Assembly (NCBI GenBank): GCA_902569055.1
Contig: CACFSU010000007.1
Coordinates: 1-52,050, forward strand
DNA: 52,050 nt
DNA from: an uncultured Pelagibacteraceae bacterium
GTDB taxonomy: Bacteria > Pseudomonadota > Alphaproteobacteria > Pelagibacterales > Pelagibacteraceae
Direction of reading: 5' to 3'
In this document: piece after piece, positions 16,457 through 21,092 of the stretch
Layout of the letters: each line of letters starts with the position of its first letter
Numbering within the stretch: position 1 is the first letter of the stretch
Notes under the pieces: model-generated
The model's database searches: none
Told to the model about the DNA's origin: nothing
What the model saw: only the letters and a program-made list of their open reading frames with translations
Position numbers and translations under genes: made by a program

Positions 16457-16819
16457 ATTTGCCAGATAAACTATAAGCCGGGTTCTGTCATTTAAACTTA
16501 TCATTTGTCTAGGCTCAAGATCACTCTTAAGCTCAAGCAACTAACCCTGATGACTAGCCAAGGATGGCTTTTAGTTTTTCAACAACGTCACCTCTACTTA
16601 GTCTTGCTCCCAGTGGGGTTTTCCAGCGTTCATTGTTACCAATTGAACCGGTGTGCTCTTACCACACCTTTTCACCCTTGCCATGTTATGGCGGTATATT
16701 TTCTGTGGCACTGTCCCTAGGGTTTCCCCCGCCAGGTATTACCTGGCACTGTATCCTTGCGGAGCCCGGACTTTCCTCTTTAACAAACGTTAAAGCGATA
16801 AGTCATTTATCTGGCAAAT
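16457..16819 (-). ncRNA. rnpB: RNase P RNA, bacterial type A
   Basis: The catalytic RNA that trims tRNA 5' leaders. On the minus strand it begins with a P1 strand ATTTGCCAGATAAA that pairs perfectly over 14 bases with the 3' end (16457-16470). Hallmark segments follow in order: GAGGAAAGTCCGGGCTCC (P4 5' half), ACAGTGCC, GGGAAACCC, GACAGTGCCACAGAAA, GTGAAAAGGTG, GTAAGAGCACACCG, and ACAGAACCCGGCTTA (P4 3' half). About 363 nucleotides, normal for type A. The reading frames seen inside it are spurious. Confidence 0.97.
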
Positions 16820-19046: not shown

Positions 19047-19060
19047 TTTTTTATTTTTTG
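19030..19060 (+). terminator. Weak terminator-like hairpin at the end of mlaC
   Basis: AATTTAC and GTAATTT (19030-19036, 19043-19049) can pair with one mismatch around a 6-base loop, and a T-rich tail TTTATTTTTT follows. The mlaC stop codon lies inside the 3' arm. The stem is short and AT-only except one pair, so this is tentative. Confidence 0.3.
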
Positions 19061-19135
19061 GTGGGCCCGCCAGGACTCGAACCTGGGACCAATACATTAT
19101 GAGTGTACTGCTCTAACCAACTGAGCTACAGGCCC
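19059..19135 (-). tRNA. tRNA with CAU anticodon (probably tRNA-Ile2; alternatively elongator Met)
   Basis: A canonical 77-base tRNA with encoded CCA. Acceptor GGGCCTG pairs with CGGGCCC, D-arm GCTC/GAGC with loop AGTTGGTTA, anticodon CAT at 19101-19099 in loop CTCATAA, and T-loop TTCGAGT on a CCAGG/CCTGG stem. The C4-G69 and C5-G68 pairs match known determinants for TilS, which makes lysidine-34 in tRNA-Ile2, and the variable loop TGGTC resembles E. coli Ile2, so I lean to Ile(AUA). Met cannot be excluded from sequence alone. Confidence 0.93.
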
Positions 19136-19191: not shown

Positions 19192-19266
19192 TGGTGGGCC
19201 GTGTTGGTTACGCTCCAACTACCCCTGCAATGTCAATGCAGTACTCTACTATTGAGCTAACGGCCC
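19192..19266 (-). tRNA. tRNA-Val(GAC)-like RNA with non-canonical D- and T-loops
   Basis: A 75-base cloverleaf with encoded CCA. All stems pair: acceptor GGGCCGT/ACGGCCC 7 of 7, anticodon CTGCA/TGCAG 5 of 5, T-stem GTTGG/CCAAC 5 of 5, and D-stem GCTC/GAGT with one G-U. The anticodon is GAC (19234-19232) in loop TTGACAT. The T-loop reads AGCGTAA instead of TTCRANN, and the D-loop reads AATAGTA, losing G15 and G18 while retaining G19. Position 48 is A, so the usual 15-48 pair is also missing. It starts 8 bases after the rpoD stop on the same strand. Either a divergent or non-translational tRNA, or a decaying one. Confidence 0.75.
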
Positions 19267-19274
19267 ATTGAATG

Positions 19275-21092
19275 TTAGCTCTCTAAGAAACTTTTTAATT
19301 GTTTAGATCTGCTAGGGTGTTTTAATTTTCTTAAAGCTTTAGCTTCAATTTGTCTAATTCTTTCTCTAGTTACAGAAAACTGTAACCCAACTTCCTCTAA
19401 AGTATGATCAGTATTCATGCCTACTCCAAACCTCATTCTTAAAACTCTTTCTTCTCTTGGTGTTAACGTAGATAAAATTTTTGTGGTTGCTTCGCCTAAA
19501 TTAGATTTAATTGCTTGTTCTAATGGTGCTAGTGCTTTTGTATCTTCAATAAAATCACCCAGACTGCTATCTTCTTCATCACCTACTGGTTTTTCTAGTG
19601 ATACAGGTTCTTTAGAAATCTTAAGAACTTTTCTAACTTTATCTAATGGCATTCTAAGCTTTTGAGCTAATTCTTCTGGTGTAGCTTCTCTTCCAAACTC
19701 ACTTAATATTAATCTTTGAGTTCTTACAATTTTATTTATTGTTTCAATCATATGAACCGGAATTCTTATTGTTCTAGCTTGGTCTGCTATTGATCTTGTA
19801 ATTGCTTGTCTAATCCACCAAGTAGCATATGTTGAGAATTTGTATCCTCTTCTATATTCAAATTTATCAACTGCTTTCATTAAACCAATATTTCCTTCCT
19901 GAATCAAATCTAAGAATTGAAGACCTCTATTTGTATATTTTTTTGCTATAGAGATTACTAATCTTAAATTAGCCTCTACCATTTCTTTTTTCGCAATTCT
20001 AGATTCTTTCTCACCTTTTTGAACTCTACTGACTAATTTTTTAAAATCTGTGACAGATATTCCAAGTTTATTACTCATTTCAATGAGTCTTTCTCTTATA
20101 TCCTTAAATTTATCTTTATTTTTAGCAAAAAATTCTTTCCAAACTAAATTAGTATCTAAGAACTTTTTCAAGTTTGGATTAATTTCATTACCTAAATAAA
20201 ACTTAACAAATTCACTTCTTGAAATTTTATTATTCATTGCAAGTCTTAGCAGATTTCCCTCTAAAGAAATAATTTTTTTATTTTCAGTGTAATGTTTTTG
20301 AACAAGCTCTTCTAAAACTGATGGGGATAATTGAAGAGATTTAATATTTTTTAAAATATCATTAACAATTCTTTCATATCCTTTTTCTTTTGCCAGAGAA
20401 AAGTTTCGAGAATTTAAAACACAATCAAGTTTTTCATTTTGGTATTTAATAAGTTTATTGTATTCTTTAGTTAAAGTATAAACAGTTTTTAATACTTTAG
20501 GTTTAATTTCACTTTCCATTGCGGCAAGTGTAGGATTAAAATCATCGTCATCCTCATTAGAATTTTCCTCTGCTTCACCAGAATTTTTTTGTTTAGCACT
20601 TGGTCCTGTTGACTCGTCTTCCATGTAGTTAGTATCTATATCAATAATTTCTCTAACTAAAATTTCATCTTTTTGTAATTTTTCATTCCACTCAAAGAAC
20701 TGTTGAGCAGTAATAGGACTTTGAGATAATGCAATAAGCATTACATCTTTGCCTGCTTCTATTCTTTTTGCAATTGCAATCTCACCTTCTCTTGAAAGAA
20801 GTTCAACTCCACCCATTTCTCTAAGATACATTCGAATAGGATCATCACTTTTCTCAATCGTTTTACCTTCTTCTTTAAAGCTTGCTTCTTTTTTTCTTAA
20901 AACTTTATAATCTGATTTTTTTTCTACTAAAATTACATGCTCATCCAAAATATGAATAAAGGCTTGAGCTAAATTTTCATCAGATAAATTTCTTTTTCCA
21001 AGAGATTTGCTTAATTCTTCATAAGTTATAAAACCTCTGTGGGTTCCTCGACCCATTAATCTAGCAAATGATTTTGTTATAATTCTTTCCAC
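19275..21092 (-). CDS. rpoD: RNA polymerase primary sigma factor (sigma-70)
   Basis: A 605-residue housekeeping sigma factor. Region 1.1 is at the N-terminus ([11 protein letters not shown]), region 1.2 near 82-115 ([12 protein letters not shown]), then an acidic non-conserved insert, region 2 ([26 protein letters not shown] and the -10-reading [15 protein letters not shown]), region 3 (IRIPVHM) and region 4 with [15 protein letters not shown] and the -35-reading [17 protein letters not shown]. It follows dnaG after a 67-base gap, in the yqeY-dnaG-rpoD order, and is followed at 8 bases by the tRNA-like RNA, which may be co-transcribed. Confidence 0.98.

Follow-up and report, generated by a model that had tools for sequence, protein, structure and literature searches.

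A conserved SAR11 tRNA-Val(GAC) with a rewired, probably compensated elbow

Background

Laboratory work on suppressor tRNAs by Zagryadskaya et al. in 2003 and 2004 has reportedly, judging by the titles, tested the elbow contacts (18-55 and 54-58) that support tRNA function. In passages of two reviews, pseudouridine-55 and U54 are described as universally conserved (PMC4810234, PMC7912444). Eukaryotic tRNA-Ala is given in part of the account of Westhof et al. 2020 as carrying R15/A48 together with A54/A58, pairs that are stated there not to be observed in bacteria (PMC7566577), and a passage of one of the reviews gives A54-A58 for the eukaryotic initiator tRNA (PMC7912444). In searches of an open-access library, no description was found of A18-G55 pairing or of elbow rewiring in tRNAs of SAR11 or phages.

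The tRNA-Val(GAC) described here lies next to rpoD in an uncultured Pelagibacteraceae bacterium of SAR11, which is abundant in the ocean. The window, i.e. the whole stretch of DNA that was analyzed, comprises 52,050 nt (contig CACFSU010000007.1, positions 1 to 52,050).

The tRNA-Val(GAC) gene and its elbow

The following features were located, with the source of each in brackets:

19192..19266, minus strand: tRNA-Val(GAC), 75 nt including the encoded CCA (ARAGORN, Rfam, fold)
19247..19253, minus strand: D-loop AATAGTA, i.e. A14 A15 U16 A18 G19 U20 A21 (sequence)
19252, 19250 and 19249, minus strand: A15, A18 and G19 of the D-loop
19232..19234, minus strand: anticodon GAC, which reads GUU and GUC (ARAGORN)
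19220, minus strand: A48, the would-be partner of A15 (sequence)
19208..19214, minus strand: T-loop AGCGTAA, i.e. A54 G55 C56 G57 U58 A59 A60 (sequence)
19214, 19213, 19212 and 19210, minus strand: A54, G55, C56 and U58 of the T-loop
19192..19194, minus strand: 3' CCA, encoded (sequence)
19059..19135, minus strand: tRNA with a CAT anticodon and a canonical elbow, downstream of tRNA-Val(GAC) (ARAGORN, Rfam)
19275-21092, minus strand: rpoD, with its stop 8 nt before tRNA-Val(GAC)

The gene was predicted by ARAGORN as tRNA-Val(gac) at 19192-19266 on the minus strand, and it belongs to the Rfam tRNA family (RF00005) with a full-length match (model positions 1-71) that scores 53.6 bits, the cut-off being 29. 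Its minimum-free-energy fold is a cloverleaf (-28.6 kcal/mol, z -3.3; equalled by 0 of 200 shuffles) with an acceptor stem of 7 bp, anticodon and T stems of 5 bp each, and a D stem containing one G-U pair (G10-U25). The initial annotation, which gave intact stems with one G-U, an encoded CCA and tRNA-Val(GAC) identity, is thereby confirmed, and all of the loop bases it named (AATAGTA, AGCGTAA, A15, A18, A48, A54, G55 and U58, alongside the retained G19 and C56) are correct. The canonical elbow (G18-U55, U54-A58, G19-C56) is absent: A18, G55, A54 and U58 are found instead, and G19 and C56 alone are kept. That annotation had taken the contacts as merely changed; its bases were right, but comparison with other tRNAs points to replacement by matched alternatives. 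An RNase P RNA (class A; Rfam, 289.5 bits) lies some 2.2 kb away from the two tRNAs, at 16458-16814 of the window on the minus strand.

Sequence comparison makes it highly probable that this is a functional elongator tRNA-Val(GAC) of normal L shape, with an elbow held by matched alternative contacts. A18 would pair with G55, replacing G18 with pseudouridine-55; A54-U58 would close the T-loop, replacing U54-A58; and A15 would face A48. The D- and T-loops would still dock through the retained G19-C56, and the tRNA would decode GUU and GUC. Because U55 and U54 are absent, neither pseudouridine-55 nor ribothymidine-54 (the TruB and TrmA-type products) is possible. L-shape geometry, charging by ValRS, use by EF-Tu and co-transcription with rpoD are features that we infer for this tRNA.

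Decoding role and valine identity

The single-contig, complete genome of a relative (G012) has 32 tRNAs, which include one canonical tRNA-Val(TAC) and a single rewired tRNA-Val(GAC) as the only GAC isoacceptor. The second, canonical tRNA-Val(GAC) that the initial annotation suggested seeking is thus absent from that genome, and the window's own assembly, which is 75% complete, has 17 tRNAs with no other Val among them. GUU and GUC make up 393 of the 689 Val codons in 35 window ORFs of at least 200 codons, which were taken mechanically.

According to part of a published account, the main bacterial Val determinants are A35, C36 and A73, and the accessory ones in E. coli are G3-C70, U4-A69, G20 and G45 (PMC9976931). 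All three main determinants are present in tRNA-Val(GAC); G3-C70 and G45 are present as well, while 4-69 is C-G and position 20 is U. The possibility that this is a divergent but working Val tRNA, one of three offered by the initial annotation, is supported by the main determinants together with conservation, covarying stems and the sole GAC isoacceptor of G012. All GUN codons might be readable by the canonical tRNA-Val(TAC), so tRNA-Val(GAC) may not be strictly needed.

Another of the three was a dedicated non-translational tRNA, by analogy with the staphylococcal peptidoglycan tRNA-Gly. Such a role might agree with the altered D- and T-loops and with a second Val isoacceptor free to decode GUN, but no positive evidence for it was found. 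We consider it very improbable, since the anticodon arm and the main Val determinants are kept and the gene is the only tRNA-Val(GAC) of G012. The same T-loop also occurs in viral tRNAs of 23 anticodons and is therefore not tied to one special use, and the amino acids that peptidoglycan most commonly receives from tRNA are, in the same partial source, Gly, Ala and Ser (PMC9976931).

Conservation across SAR11

BLAST matches to tRNA-Val(GAC) were obtained in 82 of 101 genomes sampled from the genus, and the 75 nt are unchanged in 69 of the 101, with the window's own genome included in both counts. All 16 genus genomes that are at least 90% complete have a match, although not all are identical (that of G037 is canonical). 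This conservation across the genus excludes a chance origin of the unusual loops. The nearest named rpoD matches are from uncultured Pelagibacteraceae (best 93%), and of the 14 named Pelagibacteraceae loci whose rpoD is 82-93% identical, 13 have the identical tRNA.

A pattern search found tRNA-Val(GAC) in 124 of 147 sampled genomes of the order, and the loops were tallied by eye. The T-loop is AGC[GA]T in 73 of the 124, namely 71 of the 72 matching genomes of genus g1, G193 (genus g4) and G167 (genus g5), and TTCRA in the other 51, namely G143 (g1), nine genomes from sister genera and 41 from family f2. G205, counted among the 71 rewired g1 genomes, has only the 3' half of tRNA-Val. In a class-wide sample, also tallied by eye, 141 of the 150 matches listed are tRNA-Val(GAC), the remaining nine having been dropped as not tRNA, and among the matches listed the rewired form occurs only in the window's genome.

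The tRNA-Val of G193 (L216, 388-462) is an exact copy of the genus-g1 rewired sequence, as in L164 and L218, which suggests horizontal transfer or contamination. Copies of the 3' half of tRNA-Val were observed near 3021 in L228 (G117) and near 2871 in L214 (G205), each with a different 5' flank, as at the attachment sites of integrating elements; a prophage within a SAR11 tRNA-Val is reported in a passage of PMC7542561.

Allowing up to one mismatch, Val-GAC was not found in the sister-genus genomes G130, G203, G204 and G213, and Val-TAC was found in G130, G203 and G213; in these four genomes tRNA-Val(GAC) may be dispensable and the isoacceptor lost. Dispensability within the genus was considered for G155, G223 and G228, which are without Val-GAC by pattern, and was rejected as a probable assembly gap, since G155 and G228 have no rpoD match and the rpoD of G223 is cut at a contig edge.

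The rpoD neighborhood

The tRNA begins 8 nt past the rpoD stop, a distance so short that the two genes are probably co-transcribed. Among 13 identical named-locus copies, 12 have the tRNA start 3-10 nt beyond the final rpoD codon in the match, a distance that takes in the stop codon. Counted in the same way, the tRNA of most relatives starts within 3-16 nt, a proximity that favors the third earlier proposal, that the tRNA is a structured 3' end of the rpoD mRNA. This proposal was rejected, and we regard it as extremely unlikely, because intact rewired copies do not adjoin rpoD in eight genomes (G009, G017, G034, G042, G075, G117, G193 and G167). In G117 the two genes are on one contig but 455 kb apart, and in each of the other seven they lie on separate contigs and the tRNA has no rpoD beside it. 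In addition, 1.2-1.3 kb separate rpoD and the tRNA in L024 and L113, and the conserved anticodon and identity nucleotides would be unneeded by an mRNA end.

Stem covariation

Ten distinct rewired tRNA-Val sequences were aligned without gaps. In this alignment 99.5% of 210 stem cells are paired, the sole mismatch being in G202; 0 of 500 shuffles reached as high a value, and slid controls did not come near it either. Changes on both sides were found in 11 of the 21 stem pairs, which constitutes covariation in agreement with RF00005; the D stem is invariant in the ten sequences and hence uninformative in this respect. The D-loop is invariant except at alignment columns 16 and 19, and variant loop forms are confined to AATAGAA, AAAAGTA, AGCATAA and AGCGTTA, all of which retain A18, G19, A54, G55, C56 and U58. 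The initial annotation had argued that intact stems with altered loops are not simple decay and had proposed aligning the relatives' locus for stem covariation with fixed unusual loops; the alignment bears this out, with covarying stems and nearly invariant loops.

The same annotation held that canonical relatives at the locus, with independently decaying stems, would indicate a pseudogene or sequencing error. Canonical relatives do occur beside rpoD (G037, G065, G141 and G143), and 3'-half remnants exist in G117 and G205, but the stems are intact bar the one mismatch in G202. Given the double-sided stem changes and the identical copies from separate genomes (69 of 101), i.e. from most sampled genomes of the genus, a pseudogene or sequencing error was rejected and has almost no probability left to it.

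Canonical relatives, switching and origin

In the four canonical genomes of the same genus (G037, G065, G141 and G143) the tRNA lies 256, 5, 12 and 3 nt, respectively, from the rpoD match, and positions 18, 54, 55 and 58 all differ together from those of the window's tRNA. On an rpoD tree of 59 rows, which has a very long outgroup branch and unsettled bootstrap, the two elbow states require seven changes, of which starred branches force five; G143 falls within a starred clade of 11, and G065 and G141 within a starred clade of 26. Either the elbow has therefore changed state repeatedly, or there has been movement of tRNA genes from one genome to another. A48 counts as a change of its own, since canonical loops can accompany it: in G065 it stands with A15 in an elbow that is canonical elsewhere, and the loops of genus g2, which also has A48, are canonical.

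Identity to the window's tRNA among canonical SAR11 Val genes is 65/77 columns for G037, 63/75 for G065, 60/76 for G143 and 59/78 for G141. The best viral tRNA, a Val(TAC) in L300, has 60/78 and also carries GGGTA with A48. A phage tRNA, or its loops by way of gene conversion, might therefore have replaced the native SAR11 elbow, the product still decoding, a history that would be compatible with a compensated elbow. Viral tRNAs often have these loops, L300 is about as close as G143 and G141, and G193 of another genus carries the exact genus-g1 sequence. However, the canonical genes beside rpoD in G037 and G065 are closer, and blastn of tRNA-Val(GAC) against 50,697 phage records gave no match at E 0.01. 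We judge this history possible but on balance unlikely. Wholesale replacement is not the leading idea, because G037 and G065 resemble the window's tRNA more than does any of the viral tRNAs compared, and exchange with phage tRNAs is kept as a possibility because G143 and G141 show little or no advantage over the best viral one in this respect. On 75 nt of sequence, in-place change, loop conversion and phage-tRNA exchange are indistinguishable.

Elbow coupling in other SAR11 tRNAs

The matched replacement of elbow contacts is seen in further SAR11 tRNAs. In the tRNA-Phe of the order, as tallied by eye, A18 occurs with TGCRA (G55) in 55 genomes and G18 with TTCRA (U55) in 74, and none of the 129 is mixed. 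One SAR11 tRNA-Phe considered here is that at G000:C1:64294-64361 (L013); class-wide, 75 of the 76 tRNA-Phe among the matches listed are canonical by eye, and the exception is that of the window's genome. For tRNA-Thr(GGT), A18 is combined with TGCAA in G012, G009 and G134, and AGTA with AGCGTAA in 17 of 22 sampled family-f2 genomes. The tRNA-His of G082 and G103 likewise has AGTA with AGCGTAA; that of G082 (GTG; L276 51-121, C1:1045078-1045148) is missed by ARAGORN and scores 50.6 bits with Rfam.

A tRNA-Thr(GGT) with the T-loop GTCAGTA was also observed in L023 (window's genome) and L275 (G082), having G54/G58 with G18/U55 kept; G54/G58 turns up again in viral tRNAs (16 of 323). When 398 genomes of the phylum, including two from this order, were searched for AGTA with AGCRTNA, no further tRNA was found; the matches in the three other genomes, like a second one in the window's genome, failed the stem test.

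Elbow coupling in viral tRNAs

Viral contigs, partly chosen for carrying such tRNAs, were scanned with paired loop patterns (115-120 loci per scan, 53 for G18 with AGCRTAA), and the counts are uncorrected for relatedness. Among the matches listed, cloverleafs were formed by 88 of 127 for A18 with AGCRTAA (AGTA + AGCRTAA), 90 of 128 for A18 with TGCRANT and 145 of 179 for G18 with TTCRANT. The mixed sets gave 0 of 53 for G18 with AGCRTAA (complete scan) and, among the matches listed, 1 of 120 for G18 with TGCRANT and 9 of 121 for A18 with TTCRANT. In five of these nine, position 18 is probably G, since GG directly precedes the matched AGTA. With a looser filter, 80 of 93 pattern matches passed, among the matches listed.

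When 645 viral loci were searched for cloverleafs without any loop pattern, 1520 distinct tRNA-like sequences were obtained. Pairs were counted in 323 pattern-free viral tRNAs (166 loci) with 7-nt D-loops, the fourth base of which was taken as position 18; 730 of the 1053 pattern-free cloverleafs, having 8- or 9-nt loops, were left out of these counts, which are as follows:

18-55: GU 248, AG 61, GC 8, GG 5, AU 1
54-58: UA 246, AU 38, GG 16, CA 12, AA 6, others 5
19-56: GC 296, AU 14, others 13

Fisher tests on the main 2x2 tables, uncorrected for relatedness, gave 6e-58 for 18-55 and 4e-40 for 54-58. The rule that A18 goes with G55 and G18 with U55 is thus followed in the 129 tRNA-Phe, with no mixed case, and in the viral controls with few exceptions: four A18 cloverleafs with TTCRANT and without GG, one G18 cloverleaf with TGCRANT, and 6 of the 323 pattern-free tRNAs (five GG, one AU). 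Rfam recognized tRNAs in 7 of 7 viral stretches tested, including the tRNA-Met of Acinetobacter phage Ac42 (52.8 bits). The 97 distinct viral tRNAs with A54, G55 and U58 have 23 anticodons, among them CTA, which would recognize a stop codon. A48 is enriched in viral tRNAs with A54 (16/44 vs 79/547), and 15-48 takes many combinations.

Viral 19-56 was seen to covary too (A19-U56 in 14 of 323, U19-A56 in 3, C19-G56 in 1). Some tRNA-rich viral contigs match the permuted and proteobacterial tmRNA families of Rfam (L331 326-670, L349 9340-9577 and L361 3229-3479).

The many 15-48 combinations, and the existence of a second Val tRNA, could fit a loss of elbow contacts without replacement, in which the loops of an AT-rich, streamlined genome drift under relaxed selection and the stems alone carry function. 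Drift would give mixtures, whereas 18 and 55 change jointly in Val, Phe and viral tRNAs, with mixed viral sets of 0/53 and, among the matches listed, 1/120; moreover, the T- and D-loops are conserved as much as the stems. Such a loss therefore seems improbable.

More broadly, and tentatively, the elbow may be a two-switch code, in which 18-55 is G-U or A-G and 54-58 is U-A, A-U, G-G or C-A, around a Watson-Crick 19-56 that is itself changeable. Alternative settings would be used in SAR11 cellular tRNAs and many phage tRNAs, the switch perhaps being driven by phage and host and then fixed in the host. A possible driver would be a phage-host contest, e.g. escape from elbow-reading nucleases or modification enzymes. 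If this is true, alternative-elbow tRNAs do without pseudouridine-55, and also without ribothymidine-54 when position 54 holds a base other than U.

Significance

Replacement of two supposedly universal elbow contacts by matched alternatives would mean that a part of tRNA held to be fixed in textbooks can be rebuilt. Being natural and long conserved in several SAR11 tRNAs, and found in viral tRNAs, the replacements form a ready set of compensated variants, with which one can test what the elbow and the modifications it carries contribute to charging, binding by EF-Tu, processing by RNase P and translocation on the ribosome. Rapid translocation is said, in the title of Pan et al. 2006 (cited in PMC4810234), to depend on the 18-55 pair, and on that account the SAR11 swap would be a natural test of this contact. 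For annotation, it matters that ARAGORN overlooks a SAR11 tRNA-His with the alternative elbow that Rfam detects.

Comparison with known systems

The canonical bacterial tRNA-Val(GAC) of SAR11 family f2 and other Alphaproteobacteria shares with the window's tRNA the cloverleaf, the anticodon loop TTGACAT, A73, C56 and the encoded CCA. It differs in having U54, U55, A58 and mostly C48 (U48 in f2), as against A54, G55, U58, A48 and A18 here. The tRNA-Met of Acinetobacter phage Ac42 (NC_014660.1, Ac42t06) has the same D-loop AATAGTA and T-loop AGCGTAA but is a phage gene of other identity.

Eukaryotic tRNA-Ala, as set out in part of PMC7566577, is alike in combining a purine 54 with A48 and in its altered T-loop closing pair, but there A58 stays and that part describes no 18/55 change, whereas the window's tRNA has U58 and a swapped 18-55. 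The SAR11 tRNAs also depart from the eukaryotic type, in which A54/A58 always accompanies R15/A48, in that A48 occurs without A54 in G065 and G101. The eukaryotic initiator tRNA (passage of PMC7912444) has A54 in common with the present tRNA, which is an elongator with A54-U58 and a swapped 18-55. The non-proteinogenic tRNA-Gly of Staphylococcus aureus, as presented in part of PMC9976931, is likewise a bacterial tRNA with altered T-arm elements; its changes affect base pairs read by EF-Tu and go with use in the cell wall, whereas the elbow described here appears compensated and is found in tRNAs of many identities.
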